Part shown: positions 15,875 through 57,464 of the stretch, piece by piece | Layout of the letters: every line of letters begins with the position of its first letter | Numbering within the stretch: the stretch's first letter is position 1 | Assembly (NCBI GenBank): GCA_012932295.1 | Contig: JAAONU010000019.1 | Span: 17,741,908 to 17,805,907, forward strand | From: Cyclina sinensis | Lineage: Eukaryota; Mollusca; Bivalvia; Venerida; Veneridae | DNA: 64,000 bases | Direction of reading: 5' to 3' | Translations under genes and position numbers: made by a program | The notes under the pieces: model-generated | What the model was told of the DNA's origin: nothing | Databases searched by the model: none | Seen by the model: the letters and a program-made list of their open reading frames with translations, nothing else

Positions 15875-16602
15875 GGTTTGGCAACGGAATACATTACGTA
15901 GGGTTTGTCACAGCTGTGAACAGATATTTTAAAAAGTATCGTTTAATTGCGAACATTATTTCAACTATTGGGCCTGACACTTGGAATGGCGGTTTACGCT
16001 GCGATAGGTACCACCTATGATTGCAAACTTTGGATGGAAAGGGACATTACTCGTTCTTGGTGGACTATCTTTTAATTTATGTGCTCTCGGATGTATTTTA
16101 TTCCCGACATTGTCAGAACGTTCTACAAGGAAAGTGTTAGATATAAGTTTGTTACAAGATAAGTACTTTCTCCTGTTTGGTGTTCAGTGCCTGTTTTGCA
16201 ATTTATCAAGTTCTATGATATTTCTGCATCTACCAGCTTTGTTACTTTCGTTTGAAACCAGTATCTCCATATCATCGTTGTCACTGACAGTGTACGGTAT
16301 TTCAACTGCTTCATGAAAGTATTGCACAGTATTATCGGCTACTTCCGGAAACCGGACTGCAAGTATTGTATATACTGGTTCATTGACAATAAGTGGTATA
16401 GTCATGATACTGATACCGACCATACAAAGTCAGGTATGGGTTTTATTCCTGGTCGCACTATTAGGATTCACATACAGTGTCACAGGCGGCCACAATGTTG
16501 AGGTAATACTGTATCTAGTCGGACAGGAAAATGTTTCGGATGGCCTCGGTTTCGGCCAAGTTGCAAAAGCTTCAGGAAGTTTACTTGCTGGCCCGCTTGC
16601 TG
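15875..16602 (+). pseudogene. Transporter exon 4 with four frame changes
   Basis: Acceptor tttttacag|ggtttg, donor gctg|gtaagt. Three frames are used in turn: GFGNGIHYVGF..NIISTIG, then LTLGMAVYAAIG, then IANFGWKGTLLVLGGLSF onward, then KVLHSIIGYF, then SGNRTASIVYTGSLTISG to the end. The 728-bp length is also incompatible with the flanking phases, as expected from net indels. Confidence 0.75.
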
Positions 16603-17030
16603 GTAAGTTACTAGTAATCAATAAGCAATGGTAATTTCCGAAAGTGAAACTTATTTCCTTTTGTTTTTATTTTTTTTTATTTTCAAGCTTCATCTTTGCC
16701 TCCTGATACATTCAGTCGATAACACTCATTTAACTTTGACTACATCTGGGAAAAAAACCAACTCGTGATAGACTCCATAGCCGGCAATATGGGAATGGCA
16801 ACATAGCTCTAAGTGCTAAGAATCACATTAGTTATATGTTAAGACTGGGTAGTTAACCTGCTTTGATTAATACTTTGGAATCTATTCATATTGGCTGCGT
16901 AACATATGTCACGTGGTAAACTAATAATGTTTCAAAAAGAACATCCCTTTTTTTATTGTGTCTCATCTTATATTTTTATCATAGATAGTACTATGTACAC
17001 AGTACTCTTATGATACATTACATTTTACAG

Positions 17031-19932: not shown

Positions 19933-20161
19933 AACAAGTAGCATATGAACCCAAGTGACGTCAGACAGGTATGACAATATCAGTTTCTGTATAAACATAA
20001 GCCCCTTCTTATGGTCACCATTTGTTTTACCTCTTGCTTTCCGATGAACTTGAATAGTATAACAAACTAAAATTCAAATATTTTTACACTAACTTCCACA
20101 CATCAACTGACTCATCGTGAGAAGTCAACAATTTTATTAACACAAATACTGCAACAACATT

Positions 20162-33090: not shown

Positions 33091-33165
33091 ACATCTGGTG
33101 GGATTCGAACCAACGAACTCCGGATTGGGAGTCCGGCGCTTTAACCCCTTGACCATTGCTCCTCA
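33091..33165 (-). tRNA. tRNA-Gly(CCC)-like sequence, probably a pseudogene
   Basis: On the - strand the anticodon arm is perfect: stem ccgga/tccgg around the loop ctcccaa, anticodon CCC. Box B ggttcgaatcc is perfect and the T stem has one mismatch. The D arm is weak, and the 5' end (aggagca) does not pair with the 3' end (cagatgt), so the acceptor stem fails. A decayed tRNA or SINE head is likelier than a functional gene. Confidence 0.5.
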
Positions 33166-34108: not shown

Positions 34109-34667
34109 TTAGTCAGTATGCGAGTTGTCCTTGAGACCAGGCAATATAGTCAGCAGGATTCTGTCCATGGAAGATTCACTAGTGACTTCGTTTGCACTAG
34201 GTCCTTTAAAGCCCTTCTCAAGTTGCTCCTTTGTGGCACCGTCTTCTTGAAGATTATATTTCATTTTTTGGTTTTGTAAATCCGGCAAGAGAAAACTTAA
34301 TTTTCTATCCAAAAAACTATCATTTATGATTGTGTCTGAACTTGATATATCTTTATCTCGCTCAGAGGAATCTATATTTTCTTTTGTAGCATTTTCATCA
34401 TCAGAACTTTCACGACTGAATAAGTTGCCTGTCATTGACCCACTTTCTGTATCTGTAACAGTTTGATTATCTAACTCTCCCTGACTCAGTGCTTCTCCTC
34501 TTGTCTCTGAACCAGATGAAGGTGTCAACAAACCACCCCCGTTGTCAACTTTTATATATGAAACTTTATCTACTTTCTTACTGTTGCCAGGAGTAGAAAT
34601 GGGTGTACTTTCATCGTCACTATAAAACCTTGGTACGCTCTGTGGATATCCACTATCACCAGAAAGA
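34109..34667 (-). CDS. Receptor exon 15: cytoplasmic tail and stop
   Basis: To stay in frame the acceptor must be ccactaag|tctttc. The stronger cttgcag 11 bp upstream would give a stop after three residues. The tail is Ser/Asp/Glu-rich with Tyr motifs YPQS, YSDD, YIKV and YNLQ, and a repeated DRxLxxxLPxL motif at 818-830 and 866-878. Confidence 0.85.
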
Positions 34668-37600
34668 CTTAGTGGAATCTGCAAGATAATTAAACCTTTA
34701 GTTTGTGTAATAACCTTTGGTTTGTTTAATAATGAAATGGTTTTATTATGACTCCTGCCAATCGGTTTATCGACAGCTGTCGTATAACACATAAAGAAAA
34801 CAACGCTTAAACTATTTTAGTACATATTGTATGGATTACTTTCTTATCCTGAGCTCGTTCAATTAGATGCCGTCAACAGATATATGACTTTATCTTATTT
34901 ACAAACCTATTTTCCTTTAAAAATATACGACCAACTGCTTTTTTTAAATGTATGCTATCTATTTTAATGAAAAGTGTCCATAACAGATCATGTTAATCGA
35001 TAACGAAACAAATTCATTTGTAAAACATTTAAATGCAAACAGATAAATACTCTCCAGTATAACAAACAGCACTTCCATTTTACACATGGGGTAAAATATA
35101 TCTAAACATAGTTTCTACTTGTTCAAGTGAAGAAAATATATTTAATAATAGTTGCTAGTTATTTTTACATCTAAACACATTAATCGTAACAACTCGGCCT
35201 TTTCCGACAACTTCGTAATACGCCAAATGGTAATTCGCCCCGGCTTTAATAAAAATATAAACAATCATGGCAGAATTCAGGCAGTGTTTGTCTTATGCGT
35301 TCGAAAAAAATGAAAATAAATTTTGATTTAAAGCATGAACAGGTATAGGCTTTAAGAAATGTTTTTAATTTAGAGGACACTATTTGTATTATAAAATAGT
35401 CCAATATGGCGCCTACCACACTATTTCCGAGGTGTCTTATTGAAGTCGCCCGAGGTGTTCCGATTGCTAAACACATATACATTTGTATGGAGGATATACG
35501 TGTGCATGACGTATGGACGCCACTTGTTTTAGTGAATAGTGTTTATTGTATTTATCAAATCTATTTTTTGCTACAGCTGTTAAAACCCTTTTTGTATTAA
35601 GCTTAATTTTAAAGAAAATCAAACTCATCTAACTTACAAAATCTTGTGACACGTCCGACCCGGTCGGAATTTTGATGCTAGCATTTTCCTTATATTGTTT
35701 TAACTTGTTTCTGGTGTTTCTGAAATATAAACATTTATACGAATCAGATTGTGTTTCGATTCTCCAAACAGATTTGTAAATATAGAGCTACATAAATTAT
35801 TTCAGAAGATGAAAATATCTAGACATTTTTAGGCGCTTTCTTTGATAACTATTTCACCAATGCACCTATGGCACAATATTCAACTCTGCCATTTGTCATT
35901 TATTATAATAAATTTAATGTAAATTCTCTTACAATGATACCACGCTTGCTGGAAGTTACAACTTGATTGCTGTTTAGACCCTGTCGTCTATATCATGATT
36001 TCATTTTGCTGAATGACAGTGCAATGTAGCGTAATGATATATTTCAACATGCTTGGACTGTACATCAGCACTGATATTTCAACATTCCTCTGTTTACACG
36101 TTGTGACCAGACAATATGAAAGATATAATCAACCACTAGGCAAGTTGAAAGTATTTTAAAGCATAATGTCAGTTGCAAAATTGCACGTCACAATATGATA
36201 CCAGGGGGCGCACGTTCGTAGTTTTCACGAAAAATAACGGAAATCTCCGTCCTATGACAGAACTTCGTTAGCTATTGCCTAAACCACTTCCCATCAGTTA
36301 GATCTCTATACATATTCGGGTATCCTCGATATCCTTCCGACAAATAATTATCAAATAACGGAAAAACACGACTACTTGAACTTAGTTTCCACTGTTGTCA
36401 AAATGTGACTTACAAGTTTGAATTGACATAATGCTTACGTCTATTTTGCCTAGGGCCTAATAACATTTTCTATACTGATTGATCACTTCGTGTATTTTGT
36501 TCTTGGATGCATTACAAAGATAGCCACGGCATAATGAAATACACCATTACGCTACATTGAACTGTCTGAGTGACATTGAACTGTCATTCGTCAAATGAAA
36601 ATATGATATAGGTCGAGCATGGCCTAAACAGCATACAAATTGTAACTTCCAGCAAGCATTGTATCATTGTCAACAAGCGTGATGGAACTGCCATAATGTA
36701 TAATATATAATGTCTGTACCCGTAAGGACTATAGGAGATTCAGCGAATAACTTGTAACAGTCAACAGTCATTGTGTACTTTTTACCTAAATAACATTCCA
36801 TAGATAATAACAATAGACTGAAATAAAGTAAAAAGAGAACTTATAGTAATAGATAATAGATAATGTCATTTCTGCACTGTTTTTTTCTATTATATATCTT
36901 TTTTCTTGACAAATAAGGTCATTTGATGAATTTGATAAATGTGTAATTAAAATGATGTATACTTTGATAATACCTGCAACATATCAGGACTGTTATTAAA
37001 ATGCCAATAAAGGACATAACCACAATAATTATAACTGCCACGGGAATACCTGCAATACATAACCAGAATGTCCTAATTAAATAAACAAAAATATATATAT
37101 AAGATTTAAAGGTAGCAATGGGCCATTTTTGAAGAAATGTTTAAATAGTTTAATGTGACTATTGAAATGCTTAGAAATCGTTACTATATCATCTTAAAAT
37201 ATAGGTTTTAATCAAAATGTTTTTCTCAGCTGGATGTATATACCACCCAGAAAAACATATTGTAACACTGCAGTACAATAGTAAGACTAGTTAACCCAGT
37301 CGATGCACAACTAGCTCTATAAGCTGGTGTGACATAAAATATACATATGTTTGTCTCCTTTCTTGTCAAGTTGAGAAGAGACACCACTACGTGTTCGCTT
37401 TAAACTCAGATGTTTATTTCGAATTAAAATATTTGATATTGTAAGTTCATATGTACTGTTGTCTATAGGTGTTGCGATCTTCGGTTTGGTTTTGGGACCA
37501 ATTTGCTGGTTGTCAGCAATGCCCCTGACGGTTACAGCATAAGTACTGTCCTTCTTTAAGTCCCTCAACACGATCCTCGACTTTCCAGTGGCGGGCACAG

Positions 37601-40600
37601 TTTCATCTGCCATTACACACACAAAAAATCCATTAAAGAGGCAAACTTTAAGCATAGAACTTGTACACACCAAACATCCATTAAAGAGGCAAACTCTAAA
37701 CATAGAACTTGTACACACTAAAATCCATTAAAGAGGCAAACTCTAAACATAGAACTTGTACACACCAAAAATCCATTAAAGAGGCAAACTCTAACCATAG
37801 AACTTGAACACACCAAAAATCCATTAAAGAGGCAAACTCTAAGCATAGAACATGTCATTTCGTTCAAAATCATAAGTGATGTTGTCAAAGTTTTTAAGTA
37901 CAACCGTGTAACTTAACGCATTGAGAGATGTTTATTACAAAATAAGTTTTTCTTATTTCCATTTGCCCTAAGGAAAAAAATCTGAATATATGTTATCTTT
38001 ACTTCAAGAGTTTATTTAATTTGATAAAGTATCGGTCAATAAATATCCATACAGTATATCATCCGCTTATTATACAATATCCTCCTTTAAAATGTGTCAA
38101 CGTGTTTGAAATATTTTCAAGGAGTATTATTATGTGATATTAACTTATATGTGTACTTGCAGTTTACCATTCTTGAAATTGGAAAACATTCAACATACAT
38201 GTACGAACTGGGACCAAAAAGACCTAGCGCTTGAAATCAAGTAAATCAAATCAAACTGCATTTTTTTGAAAATGAAACCCTGTCACCTAAAACCTAAGAA
38301 GTGAAATGCAACTATGACATGGACTTGGACAAAAGGAAGAGATATTTATTCAGCGTAGGAGCTTAAGAAGTAAAAGGAAAAGAAGCATAAATCATATTTC
38401 ACCGATTCTGGTTTTTTTTGTAAATCGAGATCGCATACCATACAAAACAGATTCATCTTCAAGATACGAGCACAGAAAAGTGATAAAATTTTTTGAATAA
38501 TTTGTAACAGCCTTGAAACTGTGACTAAAACGAAATGTAAATGAAGAAATGATAAGAAAACATATTGTTTCCAGTGTCCATTGTTCAAAAATAAGAAAAA
38601 AGGGCCAAGGAGGCACAATTTTAACACTCCGGTGGAATATCGTTTGAACTAAGTAAATTGCAAAATCAAGAATTGGAACGAAAAGGACTTTATCAGTGAT
38701 GTGTCAAGGAAGCAAAATATCGCCAACCACAAGTCAGACATTCTTAACATCACCTTTGACATAAGAGAAAGATGTGCTAACTGTGGAAATCAAAAAAAGC
38801 TTGAAGGTGATAAGGAAATGGGGAAATGTGCTTAGACTGTTAAAAGATGAATCATTTTAGAGCTGTGTGCCGTTTAAAGAAAAGGAATGTTCATCAGTTA
38901 CAGCTAGAAGTTCCAGACTTCGGTCCTTAAAATGACAGTAGTAGTAGTCTGAGTTCTTAGTGCACACAAACATTGCCTAGACAGAAGACCGAGCAATCAT
39001 AAAATAAAAGCATTTTCAGGTCTTTGGAAACTTCTGAGTGAATGTGACATTCACATCGAGGCAGACGCAAACCCAAACAAAAAGCTACCAAGACGTGTAC
39101 CATTCACATTCAATGACAATGTAGAAGCTTAACAGAACTTTGGAGAAAAATGGTATTGTCATGATAACCTTTTCGTCTCAGTGGGTATCAAGTTTGGTCA
39201 CTGTATAAAAGTCCATTGGTTCATGAAATCATTATAAGACCTCCAGTATGCATCAAGATCAGAGTCAAAATCTTATCACACTTAGCAGGGGTCAACGTCT
39301 TCTCAAAACTTGATGAACGGACAGGATAATAGGATGCACAAAGGCATCTTATCTAACTGTTCTCAAAACCCTTTTCAGACAGTACTGTTTAACATTTACC
39401 ATGTGGACAAATGTATCTGTCTGGATAAATGTTTTAAAGGTTTAACTAGGGTCAAGGTAAATGGAGATGATTTTGTTTGCTATGGCAAAGACAAAACAAA
39501 AGAGCAGATATAACCTAGACGGTCTAATAAAGCAGTGTCGAAAAAAAGCATAACGTGCAATGCTGACATGATCAAAACTGGAAACAGTGTAAATAATCCT
39601 TCTTTGGACAACACCTTTCACAAGGTCTGAAGGACTGCAAATTGACCAAAGCACGGTCAAGGCCATTCATAAAATGTCCTCAGAAAAGTAAAGACTGTGT
39701 TAGGCATGATAACATAACGACTTGTACCCAACCTCTCGAACTGAGTGATTTCCCTAAAAATTATTCTGAAGAAAGATGTGTTATTCAGATGGGATCCTGA
39801 ACATAAAGAAGCTTTGCCAAAAATTAGCATGCTATCATTCAAGAACCTGTCCAATACTTTCATCATTTTATCCAAAACCGGAAGTTGTACTTTAAAGTTT
39901 ACTTAAGCCAACATGGACTTAGGTGCGTACCTCTGCAAAACGACAAACTAATTTACTTTGTATCAAAGTCACTGACAATGCTAGGCGAAACTATGCACTA
40001 GAACGCAAATAACTATATAAAGTTTTTTTAAAATTTCACCAAATGATTTTGTCATTTGAGAAGGATTAGAAGTTCTTGTTCACAAGCACGCCAGTCAGTG
40101 ATAAAAACAATAATGTAGAAATGATGACAAAATGCAAACCAGTCTAACACAAAAATGGTATCCAGTCTGCCACAAAAAATGGAAATCAGTCTGATACAAA
40201 AATGGAAACAGTGAAACGCAGTGATTGTTGTATGGTAGGTCTGAACATCGCGGTCAATGTCTCTAAAATATTCTTCAATACTGGCATTTCAAAATTGAGA
40301 TATGAGTTAATCATGACATCCTGTTGAAATCAAACAGAACCACAATTCCAAAGTCATATAGGAAAACATTCATTGATAAAATACATGTGTCACACATTGG
40401 TGTTGACATTTCAAATATCGTGCTAGATGTAGATTCTTTTGGCCAGATATGACCAAAGACATCAAAAAAATCTAAGTTTTCCAGTTAAGCTTGGAAACAG
40501 ATCAGCAGATCTTATAAAACCTCTCATTTCGTATCAAATACCAAATAGGCCATGGGATGCTGTAGCAACTGACAACTGTCTTCTGGAATGATACAAGCTA

Positions 40601-43600: not shown

Positions 43601-46600
43601 AGAAACTGCCCAACATCTGTATTTCTCTATTCATAAATATAGAAACTGCCCAACACCTGTATTTCCCTATTCATAAATATAGAAACTGCCCAACACCTGT
43701 ATTTCTCTATTCATAAATATAGAAACTGCCAAACACCCTTATTTCTCTATTCATAAATATAGAAACTGCTCAACACCTGTATTTTTCTATTCATAAATAT
43801 AGAAACTGCTCAACATCTGTATTTCTCTATTCATACATATAGAAACTGCCCAACACCTGTATTTCTCTATTCATAAATACAGAAACTGCCCAACACCTGT
43901 ATTTCTCTATTCATAAATATAGAAACTGCCCAACACCCTTATTTCTCTATTCATAAATATAGAAACTGCTCAACACCTGTATTTTTCTATTCATACATAT
44001 AGAAACTGCCCAACACCTGTATTTCTCTATTCATAAATACAGAAACTGCCCAACACCTGTATTTCTCTATTCATAAATATAGAAACTGTCCATTTGGGAA
44101 AACGCCAGCAGAATTATATATGTCAAGCTAGACAAGATCAATATTGCTAATAACACCAAAACATATAAAAGTAATCTGAGATTAAAGATAGAATGTCAAA
44201 AAGATTATACACAGTTGAAACAGAGGAAGAATATTCAACATTAAACACATTTACTAAAAACAAATGAAACTTCACCAAAAAGCACAAACATATGGCTATT
44301 TTCTGAACAACAAATGTAGTTTGTCAAGTGGCATGCAATTTATGACATATCATCATCAAAATGTCAGTCAAAAGATTTGTTGTTCTCAAAATTAATCAAG
44401 AGTATACAAAACCAACAACAAAACAGAAAAAACCAGCTGCAGTACCTGCAACAAAACCAGAAGCAAACCAGTACCACATTTTGCACAACCAGAAACAAAT
44501 GAAGCAAAACCAGCAGCAAAACCAGAAGCAATTGCAGTAGAATCAGAAACAAATCTAGCAAATCCCAGGAATAAATCACAAACGCAGCGTTAAATATAGA
44601 TAAAACTCACAGTAATTGAAGAAAACCCAGCAGCAAATGTAGGAAAATCAGCAACAAATACAGCATAACCAGCAGCAAATGAGGCAAACCCAAGCAGCAA
44701 TTTCAAAATAACAGCAGCAAATGTAGCAAAACCAGCGGCAAATGTACCAAAATAGAAACAAATATAACAAAACAGGAACAAATGTACAAAAACGAGCGGC
44801 AAATGTAGCAAAATCAATAGCAAATGCAAAACAACAGCAGCAAATGTAGCAAAATCAATAGCAAATGCAAAACAACAGCAGCAAATGTAGCAAAATCAAT
44901 AGCAAATGCAAAACAACAGCAGCAAATGTATCACTTATGTCACAAAATCAGATAGACAAGTGAAAAACTTGACCGTCCATAAATGTGAAATAAATGATGT
45001 TGTTGTGAATATTTAGTTCACATTCCTTCACCATTACATATTTAAAGACTGTTTACACATGAGTGTGGATTTCCTGGAAAAGTTGATATTATGTTGATTT
45101 CAACTAGGACGATAAAAACTGGGTTTGAGATTAACAGTTTTCGAAGAGAACAAAACTTTTATCAATCCATTTGTATCATTTATTTTACAGCGTATAACCA
45201 AATCCAGACCAGTGTACTTATCAAGCAAACGATATTTAATCTCTAGCTTTTTTCCATTTTACACCACTTCGCACAGGCTATTATTAATTATTATTTAGAG
45301 TAAAAGAATTTAGAAAGAGAAATTTTATTCATAGAAATTATAGCCTCTTGTTAAAGGTCAAGACTATTTTCATATTTGCTAAATACACTTGGTATTGAAT
45401 TCATCTATTTCAAAAAGGGGATGTTGCAGACACCGAAACCCTTAATTACCACATATGTTATCACCATAACATTTGGGGATTTCTTTACAGCAGAGTGATT
45501 TTATTTCGTTCAACCTTCACAACTTTATTATATGATACGAATTCTGGTATCTTAGTACAAACATATTTTCATATTTAATCTCTCTATAAAAACATGTACA
45601 ACGTTTGATTGGACGAACCTTATATAGGACTAAATTTTCATATCGAGGGAAGAATGCGAAAAAAATCTACAGTGCTATAAATTACAGATTGTAGATAGCA
45701 TTTTTCACATTCGCCCCTTAATATCCTTTATCTGTCAAATCTAAGGAAAGACGCTATAACCAATGCTGGAAAACATTTAATGTCCAATTCAGATTTTATA
45801 AAGCCATTAATAAACAAAAGTACTACAAAAACACTTACTTTGGCAGGAAAGGTCATCATCCTTAATGCAGTACTCTACCAAGTAGGAGACGATATATGGC
45901 TTCCCTGGCTCACATGTCAGTTTATCCCAAGTTACAAGTAATGAGTTCTTATCAGTACTAGGCTCAACATGAACATTTTTAGGTACTCTTGTTGGAGCTT
46001 GAATATAAATTGACATGGTACACGTAAGAAATGAATTAAAAAGAAGGTTGTTATATGTACTTGCAGACCCAGACAATATTTTATTTAATCAACGTAATAA
46101 CATTTTGACGATGCGCAATTTTTACAAAGCATTCAGGATTCTTTGTCCGCTAAGTACCAAAGATATTTAACCACCAACTTAACTTTTGTGTTTTTTTAAG
46201 AAAACGCAAAGAATCATTTTTTTAACAAGAGCTCCGCAAGGCGGAGCAAAATACGCCGTCAATTGAGCAATTTGTTTCAATAACATGTATCCACCTATGA
46301 AGTGTCAAGTCAATAGCTTTTATAATGTAGGAGTATGGTCCAGACAAGCATCAAGTACGAAAATTTAACTAAAGGGGGTAACTCCAAAATCATGAAGCGT
46401 ACAGTAATGGTTCTTGAGCAATGCGCTCCCTCTAAATGAGATCTATCCACCTGTACAGTTTCAAGTCAATAGCTTTGATAACGTAGGAGTTATGCCCCGG
46501 ACAAGGAAATTAAACAAATGGGCTCCAAAATCATGAAGTGCAGAGTTACTGTTCCTGTGCACTGCACTTCGCCTCAATAAAACCTATCTGCGTATCAAGT

Positions 46601-49600
46601 TTCAAGTCAATAGCTTTGATAATGTAGGAGTTATGCTCCGGAAAAGAAAATTAAACAAAAGGGAATAACTCCAAAATCATGAAGTGCAGAGTGATGATTC
46701 TTGTACATTGCACTCCGTCTCAATGAGATCTATCCAGCTAGGAAGCTTCAAGTCAACAGCTTTGATAGCGTTGGAGTAATGCTCCGGACAAGAAAATTAA
46801 ACAAAGGGGCTTAATTTCAAAATCATGACGTGCAGAGTGACGTTTCTTATGCACTGCACTCAATCTCAATGAGATCTATCCATCTAAGAAGTTTCAAGTC
46901 AATAGCTTTGATAGTGTTGGTGTAATGCTCCGGATAAGAAAATTAAACAAAGGGAAATAACTCCAAAATCATAAAGTTCAGAGTGATGTTTCTTGGGCAT
47001 TGCATTCCGTCTCAATGAGGTCTATCAACCTATGAAGTTTCAAGTCAGTAGCTTTAACAGTGTAGGACTTATGCTCCGGACAAACATCAGGACGCCGCCC
47101 GTCCGCCCGCCATGGGTGATCCCATAATACATGTACGTCCCGTCTTCGACGGGCGTATAAAAATTAAGGAACTAAAACATGATTTTGCTCCGGACAAGAA
47201 AATTAAACAAAAGATAATTACTCCAAAATCATGAAGTGCAGAGTAATGTTTCTTGTGCATTGCACTCCGTCTCAATGAGGTATATCAACCTATGAAGTTT
47301 CAAGTCAGTAGCTTCAACAGTGTAGGACTTATGCTCCGCACAAACATCAGGACGCCGCCCGTCCGCCCGCCATGGGTGATCCCATAATACGTCCCGTCTT
47401 CGACGGGCGTATAAAAATTAAGGAACGAAAACATGATTTTGTTTGAGTTTGACTGTATTTTTTGTAGCTGCTGAATATAGTATAATTAATAACGGACATT
47501 AGATACTATTGCTATTGTTTAAAAAATAAAACTTTAAATTTGCCAAAATTTGATAAATTGGTATGGGTTCAATATTATGTATGTAGCACATTTCTGTTAA
47601 CTGCTTCTTTTATGGTCCTATATAGGACAAAAACTATGAATGATGGGGTACACAATTCCGTGCCATTCATTCCAACTCTCCGAAAATGAAAGGTTAAAGC
47701 AGAGTTCAGGACGGATGTAGACACTGGGAACCATCTATTACAGTCCCTATTCATATTCTAAATAGCTATGATGAAAGAATATCATAAGTCAAATATTTGG
47801 TGCATAGCAAATTTTGAATAGTATTTTGATACAGCTGATAGCACATTTCATTGCAGAATTGGTATTCATCTCGCAAATAACCTACAGTAAGATTCGCAAA
47901 ATTAAGGCATCGTGAAAGAAATGAATTTCAGTATATTGACAATAACAGTTAATCCCACAGACATTTTCACAAATCAAATTATATGACTTCTACAAAACAG
48001 CTTTGTGTGAAGACGGATGTTACAGCGATTTAAGCTTATTTTACAAATTTGAAAGTTGTTTTTTTCTGAAAACATTTCTAAATCCTTACAGAAAAGAACA
48101 ACTGATTACACATTGCAATACTGTTCTTAATTATAAGAATGAGGGATTAACTGTGAAACTTTTAAATCAAAACAAAAAAGAAACAAACAGATTTACATTC
48201 CAAAGCTTAAGAAATAAATATTGGGGACAAGAAGCTAATTTTAAAGATTTACAAACCCTCAAGTTTAACTGAATTATATGAATTAGCAAAGTAAGATGTT
48301 AAAATAAAGTAATGAAATAATGTCTTTATTAAAACGTTTTATGTAGTTGACCTTACTGCTGTCTTTTGTGTAAACACAAGTCTGCCATTGTACTCCATTG
48401 CTGCCATGCTGTGATCCGTACATAAAGTCGTCCGGTGCATTCAATTTCAGAATTACCTCCGTCTTGTTCGAGAGTTTCCATTCAATAGGGCTGTTTTTCT
48501 AAAGTATAATATAAGATATTTAATTAAAATATTTGTTAAGTCTTACGTAGAAGATCACGCAAAATTCGAACAGGGTCAGTCAGATTTCTATACAAAAAGA
48601 TAGAAAAAATGTAAAAAGATGAATCTGTTATAACTGCACCGTAAAATAGATTCATGCTACACACTTAGGTTCAAATCCCATATAATTGCAGTATTGTCAA
48701 TGCACTGCATCGTTTTGTTACAAATGTCACAGTTCGTTAAACAAGCAAAAGAAGCTAAGACTTACATCACAGTTGTTAATATCCTTGCGACACCAGAAAA
48801 CTCTAGAGCCATGCTGCTGTATGCCGGAGGTCTCTAGGAAACGGATGTGTACTAGCGCAGTACCGTTCCTTGTACTGGACATCTCAACAATAAACTTCGG
48901 TTTATCTACTCCTTTTGAGATGTTAAAATAGATCAATTCTTTTTCAAACTTGTCTGTTGTTTCCGTACGTGTAATGAAAAGGGACTCGTAAGGGATAATG
49001 ACAGTTAACAATCAAATCTTTAAATGACAAGATTAGTAATAATAAATAGATAAAAAGTAACTTTTTTTTTTCATTTCTGATTATTACAATAAGTTGTTTC
49101 TTTGACTATATAAATAGCCTACACAATGTAAATGCGGTTTAAGTTGATCTGTAAAAAATAAAATATGAATAGTAATTAAAGTTGACTGTATTGATTTAAG
49201 ATGTTCAAATCTAACCTGACAGCCCTTTTTTTCTAAAAAAAAATGTTATTGTTGAGTTTTGTATCAATTTAATCTTCCTCTGGTTATTACAAAACAAAAT
49301 TGAACAACAGTCATGTGAAATTATATTGAAAAATATGTTTGATCTAAAGCCTAAATACAATTGTATTAAATGTGGGATTTACCCGAAGAAGCTCTTTGTA
49401 TGTTCATTATCGACGTGTCATCTGATGTGCCAATTTCATTTCTTGCTTTGATGTAAGCTGTATAGTTCGTGTCACATGACAACAGAAAACAACCGTAAGA
49501 GCTGGTTCCTGCCCATTCTGTTGTTGCATTCATCACTTCCGGTTCAAATGAAACGTGCACAATTACTGTTTCACTGTTTCTGTCTGATTCAGGAATAGGC

Positions 49601-52600
49601 TGTTAAGATATTAGTAAGTGGAATCTTAATATCGCTTGACTCTTGCCTCAGAATTTGACAAAAGCAGAAGTTTTGTTCCTCTTAAAATATCAAAACCAGA
49701 AATGTGTTGATAAAATCATCCTAACAGTAAGAAACTAGGAGACTACATATATTGTACACTACGCCATAAAAGAGACGACAATAATTGGTTGCGATAAAAG
49801 AAACTACCGCCATAAAAGAGATTACGTATATTGTAAGCCATAAAGAAGACTACAGATATTGTATGCCATGCAAGAGGAATTTGTATGCTATAAAAGTGGT
49901 TACATATATTGAATGCCAAAAAAGAGACTAAAGATACTTTATGCCAAGCAAGAGGAACTTGTATACAAAACAGATAACAAATATTGTGTGCAATAAAGAG
50001 CCTACATATATTGTAAGCCATAAAGAAGACTGCAGATATTGTATGCCATGCAAGAGTATTTTGTTTGCTATAAAACTGGTTACATATATTGAATGCCAAA
50101 AAAGAGACTAAAGATACTGTATGCCAGGCAAGAGGAACTTGTATACCACAAAACAGACAACAGATATTGTGTGCAATAAAGAGACTACAGTTACTGTATG
50201 CAATAAAAAAATGACTACAGATATTGTATGCAATAGAGAGACTTCAGATATTACATGTCAAAAAGGAGACAACAGATATAGTTTGCAATAAAAGAGGCTA
50301 CATAAACAGCATGCCATAAAAAAGTCTACATATACTTTATATTATAAAAGAGGTAGCAGATATCGTATGCAAATCGTACAGGGTTTCATTCGGCTGTCAT
50401 TCGTTCAGCATCTCGTACAGAAAAGCATTAAATTTCAAAGCTCTAAGCGACATATTTAAAGTCAAAAGCAGAGAAATACAGCGTACTTAGTAAAATTAAG
50501 TCACCTTCCACATTAGGCAAACATTACGAACGGTTCTGCCTTCCGTACAATCCATGGCGTCCCAAAAATACCCTCCGGGTGTAACAAGTGGACTAGCGCT
50601 TGGTTCTGAAAATGTTATATCTGAACTTATTTAACTGTTCTAAGTGACCCTCAATTCATTTATACAATTTTCTACAAGGTATAGACTGAAACTTTGTAAT
50701 TAAGGAAAAGATTACTATTTACATATTATATCTCAGTTGAATCTCTTTCTATATCTTTCATATAATGTCATATGATTGCTAACTTCCCTTCCGAGTACTT
50801 CCTAGCCATTGTTATTCTAAGCATTTGAACAGTCAGATTATAATTTGCACTATTAAAACTAGAAATAGTCTTGCTCGTCTGTTCACGGTACCGCCCCAAT
50901 AAGAAAGATCAGGGTCAATATCTTCCTAAATAAGACGTTTCTGAAATATATTGAAATACTTACTTGCAGAAAAAGTCCTAGCACTGGCTGAACTGTTATC
51001 ACTGCAAAACCCACCTTCAACTGGTTTCCTACATACATTGAATACGTACTGTGTGTTGGGGTGCAGGTGACATAGCATGAATGTAGCAAATTTTTCATCA
51101 GTTTGTGGGAAACTCTTAATCTAGCACAGAGAGGAAATGAAAGCCGATTTGTTATTTCTGTTGAAATAAAAACATTTACCGGTTGTGGTAGAAATTTCGG
51201 CAACTTTTTAAACATGTCTTTATATGCCGTTTCGTTCTGCTTTAACTTATCGTTTTTTTTTTGTTTGGTCCCTCCCCAATCTTCTTCCAATAATGTATGG
51301 TTATTTAATTACACGACGATATTAGAAACTTTTGCTAAAACACTTTTACTTACAAAAAGATACTTCTCGTTTTTAGGGTTCATAAATATTCAGCCACTTT
51401 TTAAATAATTTGTTCTTTAAGGTAATAAATTGCAACTAAACAGAAAAAAATAAGAACATAGTCTTCTCGAATCGAAAACTCTTTTAGGTGATCCCTATCG
51501 TCTTTATGTCCAAGATCTAAAAAAATTCTAATCAATGAGTTTGCTCGTAGGACTGAGAACCACTTATTAAAAATGTGTCAAATTAGTGGATACCATATGT
51601 ATATGAGACGCTCTATCCGACATAAACCATTTTTCCTAGTTGAATATAATTTAAAAGCTCACCTGGCTTTTCTGTACACTTAATATGTGAATTATGTACT
51701 GCTGCAGAATCTCATGTCTTGTCCCAGAGTTTGAAAATCTTAGTCTTATACAGGTGCTGTTAACTGCAAGAGCTTGCAAGTTTGAAACGGGTGCCGGTTT
51801 TACTGCAGAAAACGTAGATATATGTCTTTTTTTCTCTTTGTCAAAATTTTACGATGATCGACATCGTTATTAAAAGTATATCATTCATCTGATGATAATT
51901 TAGGTATTTACGGAATAGATACTGTATGATACCAAATTAAAAGAAGATTTTTTATCAACATGGGCGCGATCGTCGTTTGCTATTAAGGTCGTCAATCAGC
52001 TAAGCAGGTCCTGTGAAAGATTATGTTTGTGACCCTACTACACTATCTTGTTGTAACATTATTTATTTATTTATCTATTTATTTATTTATCGTACTACAT
52101 TATCTAAACAGACGGTAAGTAAAAGCTTTAAAGATCTGAAATGTTTTAGCGACGTGTTCAAAAAGTTCCTCTTACATGATAAAAGGTTTTATTATATGAC
52201 CTATAAATAGACGCGATCCTATTGGTTCAAAGCGCAGTCGGCGACCAACAATATATCGTTATATTCCTGCATTCTGGGTTTTCCCATGCTATATTTTAGG
52301 TCTAAATATAGATCGCTGTTGATACTCGTAGTAGTGCTGTCTGGTGCCCGGCACTCAGTTAACAAAATTACTCTAATGCCGGAAATAAACAAAATACATC
52401 CGGGCACTTAGACTTTTTCTAAGAAATGGCGTCTGGTGTGTGTCTTTTTTTTTTTTTTTGATGTTATATTGGATTTCAAAATCACCTGTCAGAATTCTGA
52501 GTATTATTGTAATGTGAGAATGAGTATAAAAAGTCCTACAAAAACATTAACACATTGTAATGAATGTAAAATCAGTCTGGAAGAAAACTTAGTAGAAACA

Positions 52601-53222
52601 ATTGTATGTTGTCATATAATAAAACAGTTATTGACTAGTGTGCCATAGAATATGATGTGAATATCACATCATATTCAATGGCAAACTAATCAATAATTGT
52701 ATAATATTACAAACCTATTTTAGACGTGTCAATATCGAAGAAAGACGTGACGCTTTTTCCACACAGACTTTTTAAGGTAAGCATAAAAGTAAGTTTTTTC
52801 ATCGAGAAGTCACCATCAGTTTGAATACTTTTCCAGACACAGCCTCCTGCCTGAGCATCTAGGTTAGTGCAATTCTGCCAATCTGTCCATCTCTTGTCTC
52901 TCCTGAAATATTGAAATATGTGATATCATCTGTTTTTTCCAAAACGAATATCAAATTAAGGGATTTTATTATTATAATTATTTTTATCATTATGATTATT
53001 ATTACCGTATATGTAAAGCTTAGCTCATTATAATTCAGCACCGTTTGTAAGCCTTATAAAGGTTAAAGGTAATCAACACTGCAATGACATTTTGTTGGTT
53101 TATTCTCTAAAAACTGAAAAATTAGCGTTTATGTAAAGAACGTTGTTACATTGTTTGTTCAAAACGCTTTCCAAAGGGGAACACTAGGTAGGTGTTTTGG
53201 ATTTTTAATTCACACAGCAGCG

Positions 53223-53271
<49 letters not shown>

Positions 53272-56200
53272 GACTAATGAGAAATGAGACATTGACATCA
53301 GGATATATTGTTTCAATATCATTCATGAAGGGGAAATATTGTTTCAGTATCATTCATGAAGGGGTAATATTGTTTCAGTATCATTCATGAAGGGGTAATA
53401 TTGTTTCAGTATCATTCATGAAGGGGTAATATTGATTCGGTATCATTCATGAAGGAAATGGGAAATGCCTCTGTATACAAGTCTAGTATTAGATCTTAAA
53501 ATCTACCACGTTAATTGAATAGTGTTTGTTTTGTTTAGACAAATTTCAACATCTACATAATTCTTATAATTGTAGTAAATTAATGTTATTTGATAAGTTC
53601 ATTCTTATACATCGGTTTACACGTTACAAGTCTGAATATGTTCACTATAAGCTAGAAATTATATTTTGCTGTTCAATGAACAGCACTTTAAAGAACCTTG
53701 ACCATACTGGTTCTAACTGATGTTGGCTTGGCATCCAGCGAAGAGCGCGATCACCTGTACTCATGTAAATGGCAGATGTGTCAGTAACGACTTATTTATT
53801 TTAGCATTTAAGTGGTTTAACTGCTGATTACCATTGTAAAACAACATCAGATAGAAACTTGTAGTCTTGTCCATAAGTCCAGTTGCATCTCATTGTCTCC
53901 ATATTGAACACAATGCAGTAAAAGTCTTTAACTTTCTCCGGCATGGCTGAAATATTTCAAAACATATATTTGTATCATTTATATATTTTTAGTTCGTTGT
54001 ATATGCTGTCAGATGATATTATGGACGGGAGGGGAGATGGGGTGGCGGAATGGGGAGAAGCAGATACGGAACAGGACAGAGAAAAAATTAGTGAGGGTAG
54101 GACGGGGAAGGAACAAGAGGGACAGGCGCAGGCGAACAGAACTGGGGAAGGAAGCAGGGCCGGGGCTTCAGCAACAACTAAATCGCCATTTCTAAGTTTA
54201 TATTACTAACTGCGACAACAATATAAAGACATGTCTTAATCATCTAATCTACTCCAGCTCTCTGCCTCTTCTGCAAGAAATCTCTGGGGAGTTACTGAAT
54301 ATCGATAAAATTATAGCAGAAATCAAGCAACCAATCACTAGTAAGGAGGCGTTCCAATACTGCTAAAATTTATCAATGTATCTGCTAGAGTATGAAAACA
54401 CTAATAATATAATAATAATAACTTTAATTGTAATGTTAGAGCCATATTGCTACAGATTCGCCCCACACTTAAGACATTATTTTAGTAAAAGAATATCATG
54501 CTGTTAAAAGTTCGCTAATACTAAACGTCTTTACACTAGATAACATTGTATTGTCACTTTCATTCGTTCCCTCGAAGATCTGTCTATCTAAATATAAACA
54601 CGCAATTAATCAAGATAGTTTTCTTTACACAAGTCAGCTAAAGAATAATGAGCCATAAGATTAATCATAGAAACGCATGATATCAGGAAAATTCTGCCAC
54701 CATATTTCCAAAGTCGAGTTGAGGAACCAATAAGTAAATACTTCATTGTTCGTTACGGTGTTTGTTGCCGACGGAATTAAGTTTGTCACAAATTGGTTTT
54801 CTTCCGCAATTGTTCAGGGGAATTGGATTTTATGATTAAAGTTGTTCTACAAGAGGCAGGATATGAAATAATGTGTCACAAGAATCCAGATAATTTATCA
54901 TATAAAGTACGCTATTCCCCCTTCACAGAACATTGATAATAGCGTATAAAATGTCAAGAGTTTCCTGATAACTAATCACATAAAGTAGGCTATTTTTTTT
55001 CCAAAGAACATTGACAACAGCGTTACATCCACTTTATAATTAGCCTCTAAATTCCACGTAATTTATACGTTATAGTTTCAATGACATTATATACACACAA
55101 CACAGTTACTTATTCTTGAAAACTCGTAACTTCGGTGACATTGTCTTCAGCTTAACTTGGGAAGGTCATTTTCAGCAAAGTACCTAAGGTATCTTTTGAC
55201 GGCATAGGGGGATCTGGACTCCTGGACGAACGTGGTGTAGCCTATGGTGGCGATAGCAAAAGCTTGTCAAAGGTTTTTGGGTCGGTGCGCATAACTCGCA
55301 TTTTTAAATAGTCAAAAGCCAAACCGTCAATAAAATAACCGATTAACTGTTTTTGTACAATATCCTGAGGCTGCACTTCGAAACAGTCCTCACTCTGATC
55401 TATGAGTCTTTCGAGATAGACTTGAATAAATTCCCAAGGTTTTTTCTTTACCCAGCGCAATAGTAGTATTGCATGTTGCGGGTCAATTATTTCTGCAAAC
55501 CTAACCTTTAGTTCTTTCTTTATTTCTTCCCATGATTGATCTGGATGTGCCTCAAGGTGACGCTTAAGGAAATTACTAACGGGGCCCTTTGCTGATTGAT
55601 AAGCAATTTATTTAATACTGCCTCGGTCTAAACCAATAAGCATGGCGTTTTTCTCCACGCTCTTTATCCAGTCTTTGAAGGTTTTATTATCACCTTCAAA
55701 GTAGGGGACAACCCTAGCAACCCCCTGAGCTCCTACAGTGGTGGATAAGCCAGAGATCTGCTGCCCCATCTGCCTAAATTAATCTGCCGTTTCTTCCCGT
55801 TCAGCCATAGCTATTTGGAAAAGTACTAAAAGTTACTCATCACATGTAAAAAGCTTCCTGGAAGTTTTCGAGGTCTTGGATGGCTTTTTCCCGGAACAAA
55901 ACTTTTTCTAATGTAACGTCAGTGTGGAACCACAATGTTTTATCATTGTCACTTATATCCAATATTTGATATACATTTAAAAACGAATTTATTCTCCACA
56001 ATATTTTCGAAATCCTGGTCACGGCACCATGTAGCAGCCTGGGTTGCAGCAACAACTAAATCGCCATTTCTAAGTTTATTTTACTAACTGCGACAACAAT
56101 ATTAAGACATGTTTTTTATCATCTAATCTACTCCAGCTCTCTGCCTCTTCTGCAAGAAATCTCTGGGGAGATACTGAATATCGATCAAATTATAGCAGAA

Positions 56201-57414
56201 ATCAAGTGACCAATCACTAGTAAGGAGGCGTTCCAATACTGCTGAAATTTATCAATGTATCTGCTAGAGTATGAAACACTAATATAATAATAATAATAAT
56301 TTTAAATGTAATGTTAGAGCCATATTTTTACTGGAAGTGGAAATGGCGGAGCAGAACGGGACGGGGAAGAAAGACTAGGGGAGGCCAGAGTGAAACGGAG
56401 AGAAACGGCGAAAGGTTGAGGGGACAATAAAGAGGTACGAGAGGGCAGGGCATAGCAGGTACGTGAAGGGGTTCGAAGGGGCAATGATACGTTTTATTGA
56501 AAATCGATAGGAAGGTAACATACAATTAATTAAGCACTTTAAATAGTATTTGGTAACGTTATTGCTAAAATACAAGGTAAAAATTAAAATTATCAAGCAA
56601 CCGATAAATTCTAATTGTCGAAACACGTAAGCTACTAGCAGTATATACTCATAATACGTATTATCATTTAAATGGAAGATTTTCTTTTTCAACAAAAATA
56701 AGTAAATCCACCTACGATATACCAGTAGGAGAAATTTCTTAGTCTGCATCAATGACGTAGAGTATCGTTTCCCATAGAAACATTTTAGATAATGGTAACC
56801 AATACGCTGGCCCACGTGGTATTCAAACTGAGACACGGTATCATTGACAACATCAACTTCTCTTTCATCAATTTGTATCACATGTCGATTATTAAGAACT
56901 ACAAAACCAATTGTGGCATTCGGAATTAACTGCTCCGGTGGGTTAAGCACAGAACAGGTAAATTTGACTGTCTGGCCAGGGCAGGCCTTAACATCTCCGG
57001 AAGTTAAAGAAAGTTGATATTTAACGTCCGACTCTGTGACTGAAAATGAAGGAAACTATAATGAAAATAATGTAATATTATGGACAAAGATGACCCGGGA
57101 GTTAGTTTCGAGTTCGGTCTCCTGCCCCTGTACAAATACTAGTAGAAGATGTTTAAGGTCCTGTGTATCCATGATTAATACTGCTCATGAAAAAATACTA
57201 GGAATGTCTCTTGAATTGGGATAAGTTCTGATTCTATAACTATTCCCCACGACTTAAAAATTACTCAACTGTTCAGGGGGCGTCAGGATACCAACGTTAA
57301 GTAAATTCAAATGATAACAGAGAAGAAAAGGCTAAGAAAATTAACCTGCTAACCTGATAAACTGGTGACGCCAACCAACAGTGATAATATTACGATGCTC
57401 GCGTGTGACGTCAT
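34109..57414 (-). CDS. gp130/Domeless-like class I cytokine receptor (fifteen exons, 885 aa)
   Basis: Exons in order: 57354-57414, 56716-57039, 53832-53946, 52715-52902, 51663-51802, 50964-51120, 50505-50605, 49383-49599, 48766-48953, 48357-48498, 45839-45997, 37457-37606, 36974-37049, 35639-35719, 34109-34667. They total 2658 nt and every junction is phase-compatible. Residues 1-20 are a signal peptide; 21-128 Ig-like D1; 129-229 D2 with the class I pattern CIVFNMETMRCNW and C..CVW; 230-329 D3, joined by IVKPAPVSNL as in gp130; 330-434, 435-544 and 545-647 three FN3 domains; 648-672 one TM helix; then a ~210-residue tail. Each FN3 domain spans two exons, as in vertebrate receptor genes. Size and order match gp130 (IL6ST). 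It should bind a cytokine and signal by JAK/STAT. WSXWS is degenerate (CSDNS) and the tail has YNLQ (YxxQ type) and YIKV. Confidence 0.88.
35639..35719 (-). CDS. Receptor exon 14: juxtamembrane segment (JAK-binding box 1 region)
   Basis: atttcag|aaacac to attt|gtaagt, phase 2-2. Reads NTRNKLKQYKENASIKIP then TGSDVSQD. The basic stretch and IKIP lie where box 1 is expected, but there is no full PxP motif. Confidence 0.8.
35880..36700. mobile_element. Large foldback element in receptor intron 13
   Basis: The left arm (about 35925-36035, with cttgctggaagttacaa and caatgtagcgtaatg) is repeated inverted at 36535-36670 (ttgtaacttccagcaag, cattacgctacattg). The middle is unique, and no coding region is seen. 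Confidence 0.75.
36974..37049 (-). CDS. Receptor exon 13: transmembrane helix
   Basis: attgcag|gtattc to gcag|gtatta, phase 1 in, phase 2 out. Encodes IPVAVIIIVVMSFIGILI then TVLICCR, a single-pass helix with a stop-transfer Arg. Confidence 0.92.
37457..37606 (-). CDS. Receptor exon 12: FN3 domain D6, second half
   Basis: atggcag|atgaaa to aaca|gtacat, phase 1-1. Reads IVLRDLKKDSTYAVTVRG and ADNQQIGPKTKP, FN3 E-G strands, just before the membrane. Confidence 0.92.
37623..37860. repeat. 48-bp minisatellite (5 units) abutting receptor exon 12
   Basis: ccattaaagaggcaaactct recurs at 37630, 37678, 37725, 37773 and 37821, spacing 47-48 bp. 48 bp is 16 codons, and on the - strand the last units read in the same frame as exon 12 (..VCLFNGF..). 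Confidence 0.9.
40884..41034 (+). repeat. 40-bp minisatellite, first block
   Basis: Units of tagaaactgcccaacacctg plus tatttctctattcataaata. About four copies before the tandem-core element insertion. Confidence 0.9.
41035..41816 (+). mobile_element. Tandem-core element, ~168-bp units, copy 2, inserted in the 40-bp array
   Basis: Begins actagaactgtgtccaaagg and ends actttgtgggggcataaaaa, the same ends as 27883-29421. About three core units separated by 166-169 bp, then (ggac)n-like sequence. The 40-bp array continues on both sides. Confidence 0.8.
41817..41892 (+). repeat. 40-bp minisatellite, second block
   Basis: Two units of the same 40-bp repeat, caught between the two nested insertions. 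Confidence 0.85.
41893..43480 (+). mobile_element. Tc1/mariner transposon, inactive, inserted at a TA in the 40-bp array
   Basis: Terminal inverted repeats: left cactcaacaaaaaaagaaacc, right (reverse complement) tactcaacaaaaaagaaacc. The TA target is present at both borders. The transposase is encoded on the + strand but broken: helix-turn-helix DNA-binding part at 42167-42453 (SEAERNKSIGMLQGG, HPRSGRPRVS), first catalytic Asp near 42625 (FSDESRFNLS), then GVMVWGG, the second at DNARPHTARIT near 42900, and SIEHKFIWDELGR near 43000. Frame changes after 42450, a stop at 42969 and a run of ten G near 42766 disable it. Confidence 0.9.
42167..43199 (+). pseudogene. Tc1-type transposase pseudogene
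   Basis: DDE/D-family transposase in pieces: 42167-42457 (paired-type HTH), ~42590-42660 in another frame, 42696-42971, and 42978-43199 ending RARGAHIRY. The usual ..SPDLNPIEH..WDELGR appears as TPDMNSIEH..WDELGR. Confidence 0.85.
43481..44095 (+). repeat. 40-bp minisatellite, main block (about 15 units)
   Basis: agaaactgcccaacacctgt then atttctctattcataaata repeats with few changes, mostly cacccttatt and tcatacatat variants. The last unit runs into retroelement sequence (ctgtccatttgggaaaacgc). Confidence 0.95.
44400..44940 (+). repeat. Low-complexity AGC/AAA-rich repeat
   Basis: Variations of aaaaccagcagcaaatgtagc, ending with three units of aatcaatagcaaatgcaaaa plus caacagcagcaaatgtagca. 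Open frames on the - strand (rich in Phe, Ala, Leu) are by-products. Confidence 0.8.
45839..45997 (-). CDS. Receptor exon 11: FN3 domain D6, first half
   Basis: attcaag|ctccaa to caaa|gtaagt, phase 1-1. Reads PTRVPKNVHVEPSTD, SLLVTWDKL and YIVSYLVEYC, classic FN3 A-C strands. Confidence 0.92.
46226..47420 (+). mobile_element. Tandem-core element, 146-bp units, with duplicated tail
   Basis: Head hairpin gagctccgcaaggcggagc (46230-46248). Units with tcaagtcaatagctttgata start at about 46306, 46461, 46602, 46748, 46894 and 47040, mostly 146 bp apart. The tail (gacgccgcccgtccgcccgc, then cgtcttcgacgggcgtataa) occurs twice, at 47090-47163 and 47350-47416, so the 3' part was duplicated. It lies in receptor intron 10. 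Confidence 0.8.
48357..48498 (-). CDS. Receptor exon 10: FN3 domain D5, second half
   Basis: ctttag|aaaaac to agca|gtaagg, phase 0 in, phase 1 out. Reads SPIEWKLSNKTEVILKL and GVQWQTCVYTKDS. Confidence 0.8.
48766..48953 (-). CDS. Receptor exon 9: FN3 domain D5, first half
   Basis: aacaacag|acaagt to tgat|gtaagt, phase 1 in, phase 0 out. Reads KPKFIVEMSSTRNGTALVHI and ends in VFWCRKDINNCD. The acceptor was chosen by phase. Confidence 0.8.
49383..49599 (-). CDS. Receptor exon 8: FN3 domain D4, second half
   Basis: taacag|cctatt to tcgg|gtaaat, phase 0 in, phase 1 out. Begins PIPESDRNSETVIVHV and contains DTNYTAYIKARNEIG, an FN3 F-strand motif. Confidence 0.9.
49740..50375. repeat. Degenerate ~30-bp tandem repeat in receptor intron 7
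   Basis: Many variants of gagactacagatattgtatg plus ccataaaa. The long - strand open frame (49743-50099) is produced by this repeat. Confidence 0.75.
50505..50605 (-). CDS. Receptor exon 7: FN3 domain D4, first half
   Basis: ttttcag|aaccaa to gaag|gtgact, phase 1 in, phase 0 out. Reads PSASPLVTPGGYFWD and VCLMWK. Confidence 0.85.
50964..51120 (-). CDS. Receptor exon 6: D3, second half, WSXWS position
   Basis: gtgctag|attaag to gcaa|gtaagt, phase 0 in, phase 1 out. LHPNTQYVFNVCRKP is the F strand, and GGFCSDNSSAS sits where WSXWS is expected. Confidence 0.9.
51663..51802 (-). CDS. Receptor exon 5: D3, first half
   Basis: ctgcag|taaaac to ccag|gtgagc, phase 1 in, phase 0 out. KPAPVSNLQALAVNSTCIRL is the proline-rich hinge and first strands of the D3 FN3 domain. 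Confidence 0.9.
52065..52092 (+). repeat. (TTTA)n microsatellite
   Basis: atttatttatttatctattt then atttatttatc, in receptor intron 4. Confidence 0.85.
52715..52902 (-). CDS. Receptor exon 4: D2, second half
   Basis: tttcag|gagaga to atag|gtttgt, phase 2 in, phase 1 out. RWTDWQNC and GGCVW supply the second conserved Cys pair; ends FFDIDTSKI leading into the D2-D3 hinge. Confidence 0.9.
53225..53269 (+). repeat. (TC)n microsatellite
   Basis: Uninterrupted tc repeats, over 20 units, in receptor intron 3. Confidence 0.95.
53300..53460 (+). repeat. 30-bp minisatellite, five units
   Basis: tattgtttcagtatcattca then tgaaggggtaa, spacing 30 bp (attcatgaag at 53321, 53351, 53381, 53411, 53442). 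Confidence 0.9.
53832..53946 (-). CDS. Receptor exon 3: D2, first half
   Basis: atttcag|ccatgc to aatg|gtaatc, phase 1 in, phase 2 out. CIVFNMETMRCNW is the C-x9-C-x-W hallmark of class I cytokine receptors. Confidence 0.92.
54025..54165 (+). repeat. G-rich purine tract
   Basis: gggaggggagatggggtggc then ggaatgggg and similar blocks. A similar G-rich tract continues beyond the LTR element (56333-56490), so the element seems to have inserted into one purine-rich region. Several GGG runs could form G-quadruplexes. Confidence 0.6.
54167..54454 (-). repeat. 3' LTR
   Basis: Shares with the other LTR aatctactccagctctctgc and gagagtatgaaa-like sequence. Begins tgtagcaatatggc on the - strand. Confidence 0.8.
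55206..55812 (-). pseudogene. Retroelement gag-like pseudogene
   Basis: Starts MAEREETAD and reads to LLLSPP with two stops (after TAD and after RGSIK). It resembles the capsid part of Ty3/gypsy-type gag proteins (FEGDNKTFKDWI; FLKRHLEAHPDQSWEEIKKE). No zinc knuckle is seen. Confidence 0.65.
56045..56332 (-). repeat. 5' LTR
   Basis: Ends gttgttgctgca on the - strand, followed by the primer-binding-like tggtgccgtgaccagga. Confidence 0.8.
56716..57039 (-). CDS. Receptor exon 2: Ig-like domain D1
   Basis: attttcag|tcacag to tatc|gtaggt, phase 1-1. Cys-containing strands VKACPGQTVKFTC and HYLKCFYG give an Ig-like fold as at the N-terminus of gp130. Joining to exon 3 gives FLLLVYPMPEKVKDFYC, like gp130's ..PPEKPKNLSC. 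Confidence 0.85.
57354..57414 (-). CDS. Receptor exon 1: start codon and signal peptide
   Basis: ATG at 57414 on the - strand: MTSHASIVILSLLVGVTSLS, donor tcag|gttagc, phase 1. A 30-bp tandem duplication supplies a second in-frame ATG at 57444 that would add ten residues. The shorter form has the better signal peptide. Confidence 0.8.
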
Positions 57415-57464
57415 GTCAAATATTCGTAAAACGTGTGACGTCATGTCAAATATTCGTAAACAAT
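57405..57464. promoter_or_regulatory. Two perfect CRE palindromes in a 30-bp tandem duplication over the receptor start codon
   Basis: tgacgtca occurs at 57406-57413 and 57436-57443, each overlapping an ATG on the - strand, inside two copies of gtgtgacgtcatgtcaaata then ttcgtaaa. CREB/ATF or AP-1-type factors bind this octamer. Whether it acts as a promoter is inference; a possible splice acceptor (ttttttttcag) just upstream could make this region an internal exon. Confidence 0.5.

Follow-up and report, generated by a model that had tools for sequence, protein, structure and literature searches.

The 64,000-nt stretch of DNA analysed here (the window) carries on its minus strand a receptor gene of 15 exons, running from position 57414 to position 34109 (Table 1). 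We rebuilt the gene from the raw sequence, joining exons by minus-strand translation, GT–AG borders and reading frame. All 14 introns are GT–AG, and the joined exons come to 2,670 nt, that is, 889 codons and a single, terminal stop; stops number 55 and 84 in the two other forward frames of the same join, and 46, 25 and 58 in its three reverse frames. A sequence-only reading of this DNA had already proposed 15 exons that join in frame without a stop, and our reconstruction recovers that join with exactly the same limits. The stop-free join stands, and the earlier count of 885 codons comes within four of ours, the gap reflecting the choice of some exon border.

Table 1. Exons of the receptor gene, with the protein regions that they encode and the evidence for each
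Exon and content	Position	Strand	Basis
Exon 1: start codon and signal peptide (aa 1–21)	57354..57414	-	join, hydropathy
Exon 2: putative Ig-like D1 (aa 21–129), single exon, phases 1-1	56716..57039	-	join, structure model
Exon 3: CHD D2 first half, C139-x9-C149-x-W151, phases 1-2	53832..53946	-	join, gp130 alignment
Exon 4: CHD D2 second half, C178-x9-C188, phases 2-1	52715..52902	-	join, gp130 alignment
Exon 5: hinge IVKPAP and CHD D3 first half, phases 1-0	51663..51802	-	join, gp130 alignment
Exon 6: CHD D3 second half, CSDNS at the WSXWS place, phases 0-1	50964..51120	-	join, gp130 alignment
Exon 7: FN3 D4 first half, phases 1-0	50505..50605	-	join, gp130 alignment
Exon 8: FN3 D4 second half, phases 0-1	49383..49599	-	join, gp130 alignment
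Exon 9: D5 first half (FN3 by position only), weak acceptor, phases 1-0	48766..48953	-	join
Exon 10: D5 second half, phases 0-1	48357..48498	-	join
Exon 11: FN3 D6 first half, phases 1-1	45839..45997	-	join, Pfam fn3
Exon 12: FN3 D6 second half, phases 1-1	37457..37606	-	join, Pfam fn3
Exon 13: transmembrane helix (about aa 649–672), phases 1-2	36974..37049	-	join, hydropathy
Exon 14: juxtamembrane, putative degenerate Box 1-like SIKIPTGSD (by position), phases 2-0	35638..35719	-	join
Exon 15: cytoplasmic tail, YIKV (Y741), YNLQ (Y841), stop codon	34109..34678	-	join

Splice signals, gene start and surroundings

Most splice signals of the gene are ordinary. Among the acceptors, exon 9 has the weakest, with a poor pyrimidine tract (0.35), and 5 of the 14 donors (those of exons 1, 3, 4, 12 and 13) fit GTRAGT at only 3–4 of 6 positions. 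An fn3 match at aa 550–630 spans the 8.2-kb intron between exons 11 and 12. No second copy of any exon was found within the window by blastn at E ≤ 0.01.

The gene start offers two in-frame ATGs, because a 30-bp stretch containing the start codon is duplicated in perfect tandem at 57402–57460; the upstream ATG, at 57444, lies 10 codons before 57414, and the protein counted from there has 899 aa. The duplicated stretch also holds the palindrome TGACGTCA, which we take to be of CREB/ATF type. Its copies by the gene start lie at 57443 and 57413, and the sole other copy on the strand is at 19963.

Two introns contain repeats. In intron 2, direct repeats of about 295 bp at 54159–54453 and 56037–56331, 90–96% identical and 1,878–1,879 apart, enclose two minus-strand ORFs at 55245–55778; the one that was scanned (55245–55607) weakly resembles Retrotrans_gag and the Ty3 capsid (E 0.0032 and 0.0055, below the cut-off), and the repeats and ORFs look like a short gag-only LTR element. 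Intron 11 carries, at about 41890–43480, a Tc1/mariner-like element with near-identical inverted ends (ACTCAACAAAAAA(A)GAAACCTGACA), whose helix-turn-helix ORF matches HTH_23 at 6.4e-5, just below the cut-off, and HTH_Tnp_Tc3_1 at 0.012. This element lies inside a 40-bp minisatellite (40883–41035, 41811–41893 and 43478–44092). In the same intron, a 48-bp tandem array of five copies at 37617–37855 has its start some 10 bp ahead of the acceptor of exon 12; it might influence splicing or differ in length among individuals.

Elsewhere in the window, a neighbouring plus-strand gene at about 15634–17233 matches MFS_1 (E 4.9e-10, from joined stretches of 16008–16631) and appears by eye to be monocarboxylate-transporter-like; its frame is broken by one stop near 16314, which marks either an exon border or a pseudogene. 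An EGF-like ORF on the minus strand at 24792–25073 (PF00008, E 2.2e-8) is probably an exon of another multi-exon gene. Finally, a minus-strand tRNA-like sequence at about 33092–33165, with anticodon CCC by eye, is probably a degenerate tRNA or a tRNA-derived repeat; ARAGORN with bacterial settings returned no tRNA in the window, and Rfam returned nothing at its gathering cut-off.

Relationship to gp130

The gene encodes a new long-chain class I receptor of the gp130 group, an assignment that we make because gp130 chains top the search of PDB sequences and because the CHD signature and the hinge are both present.

First, the whole protein searched against 177,635 PDB sequences gave 38 matches at E ≤ 1, the top 13 of which are all gp130 (4.4e-17 to 6.3e-8); as this library holds only receptors with solved structures, gp130 is the closest relative within that set. 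The best match consists of one aligned stretch, aa 130–427, that spans 5 of the 14 exon junctions (3/4, 4/5, 5/6, 6/7 and 7/8). The next-best receptor matches, LEPR (3.3e-6) and LIFR (1.9e-4), are weaker than gp130, and the first adhesion protein, contactin-4 (9.3e-5), aligns to D6 only. When D3–D5 were searched alone, gp130 again came first (5.9e-9) and the first adhesion protein, contactin-3, reached 0.041; D4–D6 alone matched contactin-4 at 9.3e-5, on D6, and gp130 at 1.2e-4, on D4. The CHD and D4 are homologous to gp130 and, among PDB sequences, are closer to it than to other receptors. In D4, the exon 7 segments FWDAMD and CLMWK align to FWYKID and QLVWK of gp130.

Second, the protein contains a single CHD signature, C-x9-C-x-W-x26-C-x9-C, at aa 139–188; when the extracellular region was shuffled 20,000 times, 19 of the shuffled sequences held the pattern with its last spacing widened to 9–15. 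The first FN3 fold of the class I CHD is described as CX(9-10)CXWX(26-32)CX(10-15)C (PMC1963337), so that the last cysteine spacing here, 9, is one below the range; it is also 9 in the second pair of the gp130 chain 8d82_A (C-KAKRDTPTS-C). In the HMMER alignment, the tryptophan and the first pair of cysteines fall on their gp130 counterparts; the second pair, though spaced as in gp130, is out of register.

Third, the hinge, KIVKPAP, aligns with YKVKPNP of gp130. At the place of the WSXWS hallmark, which the receptor lacks, CSDNS aligns with gp130 WSDWS.

Pfam profiles place the individual domains less evenly. The whole protein matches fn3 at 2.2e-17 and reaches about 0.003 with both LIFR_D4 and IL6Ra-bind. 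Searched singly, D3 (4.1e-6) and D6 (2.5e-9) match fn3 above the cut-off, and D2 falls slightly below it for both LIFR_D4 (8.5e-5, 23.1 of 25 bits) and IL6Ra-bind (1.4e-4, 22.7 of 24.3 bits). D4 alone reaches fn3 at only 0.095 and is placed through the gp130 alignment; D5, the putative middle FN3 domain, has no fn3 match in Pfam when searched alone. For D1, encoded by exon 2, there is no Pfam match and no significant PDB sequence match. A single-sequence AlphaFold model of this exon is all-beta with low confidence (mean pLDDT 61.9), and its top structural match is an Ig domain, that of PECAM-1, with unrelated sandwiches scoring close behind; among the 50 best matches listed by each structure search there is no gp130 or leptin-receptor chain. 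NCBIfam, a prokaryote library and so of little meaning here, assigned no family to the first 647 aa.

The N-terminus is hydrophobic and fit for a signal peptide, and a single transmembrane helix (peak hydropathy 3.22) precedes the tail. These results agree with most of what the sequence-only reading had claimed, namely a class I receptor of the gp130 group with C-x9-C-x-W and a second cysteine pair, an IVKPAP hinge (aligned with gp130 KVKPNP), a transmembrane helix and a long tail. Its domain order held for the CHD, D4, D6, the helix and the tail; the putative Ig D1 and FN3 D5 have no significant sequence match. The degenerate state of WSXWS and Box 1 had gone unmentioned in that reading. The HMMER comparison that it had suggested likewise yielded fn3, with IL6Ra-bind just under the cut-off and D1 unmatched, and the profile and sequence searches, with gp130 far above the adhesion proteins, did not move the protein out of class I.

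Cytoplasmic side and proposed signalling

At the Box 1 place, the juxtamembrane exon reads by eye SIKIPTGSD, with one proline and no PxP; Box 1 normally has PxP. No Box 2 was recognised by eye. The tail has 217 residues, in which the short motifs YNLQ (Y841) and YIKV (Y741) are a candidate STAT-type YxxQ and a candidate YxxV, one of each; in gp130, YxxQ is described as the STAT3 site and YxxV as the SHP-2/SOCS3 site (PMC1963337). Searched alone, the tail matches nothing in Pfam, nor anything in the PDB, where the best E is 1.1 (embigin). An internal repeat, aa 817–836 (SFLDRKLSFLLPDLQN) and aa 865–884 (SSMDRILLTILPGLKD), flanks YNLQ with a local BLOSUM62 score of 35; it has no known match and is a possible docking or trafficking motif.

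We consider it very likely that the gene is intact and codes for a single-pass class I receptor in the gp130 group, one that would take up a ligand at its CHD and signal to JAK/STAT through its tail. A helical-cytokine-like or other ligand would bind the two-domain CHD (D2–D3) and possibly D1 as well; no IL-6 has been found in invertebrates according to PMC13203501, which describes a C-type lectin as the activator of shrimp Domeless. The three membrane-proximal domains would space and orient two receptor chains, presumably in a homodimer, and the juxtamembrane exon, with its degenerate Box 1, would carry JAK. Phosphorylated YNLQ may then recruit STAT and lead to its activation, and YIKV may recruit an SHP2/SOCS3-type brake that damps the response.

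It is unlikely, if conceivable, that the protein is instead a decoy or non-JAK receptor of the gp130 family, its CHD binding ligand and its presence damping the signal from a second receptor chain, in the way that Latran acts on Domeless. The degenerate Box 1 and WSXWS would suit such a role, for which Latran provides a precedent in the fly (PMC2914635). In the same source, however, Latran is described as having neither an FN3 motif nor YxxQ, whereas the receptor here has FN3 domains and a 217-aa tail with both YxxQ and YxxV.

Far less probable is a pseudogene or a mis-joining of two genes. Several splice sites are weak, the 8.2-kb intron between exons 11 and 12 is rich in repeats and intron 2 holds retroelement pieces, but 889 codons run without frameshift or internal stop, which rejects a pseudogene, phase 1 falls at 7 of 7 domain borders and the fn3 match crosses the very junction between exons 11 and 12. 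We give almost no weight to a chance resemblance to gp130 in an FN3/Ig receptor that serves adhesion or guidance (contactin-, DSCAM- or RPTP-like). D6 is indeed closer to contactin-4 (9.3e-5) and RPTP-F (3.2e-4) than to any cytokine receptor, but the PDB rankings of the whole protein (gp130 at 4.4e-17) and of D3–D5 (gp130 at 5.9e-9, contactin-3 only at 0.041) strongly disfavour this reading, which we reject, and the CHD cysteine signature and hinge also stand against it.

Exon layout and known receptors

With domain limits as set in this analysis, the introns at all seven domain borders are in phase 1. Those inside domains are in phase 2 (D2), 0 (D3, D4 and D5) and 1 (D6), and of the two introns 3′ of the domains, the one that follows the transmembrane exon is in phase 2 and the one that follows the juxtamembrane exon in phase 0. 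Four exons encode the CHD, whose five introns read 1-2-1-0-1. Most vertebrate IFN-upsilon receptor 1 genes are reported to read 1-2-1-0-1-0, a pattern conserved with respect to other IFN receptors (PMC8863823), and the CHD agrees with it in a comparison of phases rather than of intron positions. Dealing the gene's 14 phases (phase 1 eight times, phase 0 four times and phase 2 twice) at random gives 1-2-1-0-1 at these five introns a chance of 2,688/240,240, or about 0.011, by hand arithmetic that ignores the bias of domain borders towards phase 1. In the passages of published papers that the analysis covered, no intron-phase argument is made for an invertebrate gp130-like gene, which is weak evidence that none is published; PMC13203501 uses none of the words exon, intron and splice in its main text.

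A full-length gp130-like receptor with every exon placed, apparently from an invertebrate, may help to date the age of this design. Its exon phases bear on whether the two-domain cytokine-binding module arose once for class I and class II alike, before the protostome–deuterostome split, a question that the fly gene, with its single-exon CHD, could not settle. If the gene is from a protostome, a bolder reading, to which we give somewhat less than even odds, is that the split-exon module (1-2-1-0-1), which vertebrate genes for interferon (class II) receptors also have, predates the protostome–deuterostome split, with class I and class II sharing one inherited layout. On this reading a gp130-like chain could function although neither its WSXWS nor its Box 1 is canonical. 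The split layout would then be older than the divergence of the lineages, and the single-exon CHD of Domeless would therefore be derived, by intron loss. The degenerate WSXWS and Box 1 also make the receptor a test case for which textbook hallmarks are ancestral.

With vertebrate gp130 (IL6ST) the receptor shares C-x9-C-x-W, the second C-x9-C, a VKPxP hinge, D4, the transmembrane helix and a tail with YxxQ and YxxV. By contrast, it has CSDNS for WSXWS, a Box 1 without PxP and a single YxxQ, and neither its D1 nor its tail matches gp130 significantly. gp130 itself has several YxxQ motifs and a longer tail.

Drosophila Domeless, likened here by description, is also an invertebrate receptor related to gp130; it combines three FN3 domains with a module for cytokine binding, and it has an LDHR of about 200 aa that is absent from vertebrate receptors (PMC2914635). 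Its CHD is described as a single exon (PMC1963337), compared with four exons here, and one account gives the fly protein no IL6R domain (PMC13203501).

The sequence-only reading had presented a full-length molluscan form as new, which overstates the case, as gp130/IL6R-like receptors of molluscs have already been published (PMC8226699, PMC13203501). One report has IL6Rb (gp130) first appearing in mollusks, although one of its figure legends places IL6RB (GP130) in lampreys (PMC8226699, 2021); the other traces 'IL6R' to Mollusca, with gp130 itself detected in vertebrates only, and describes IL6R/gp130 as a signal peptide, an Ig domain, an IL6R domain, three to four FN3 domains, a transmembrane helix and a tail (PMC13203501, 2026). 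Scallop edge mantle is among the subjects of earlier reports on this receptor type (PMC6281612), and one earlier annotation, tagged 'prtgb' in its source, may be loose. The molluscan 'IL6Rb (gp130)' and 'IL6R' are like the receptor here by description. The receptor is thus a good but expected example of a published kind, and its missing hallmarks and its exon layout are the parts of interest.
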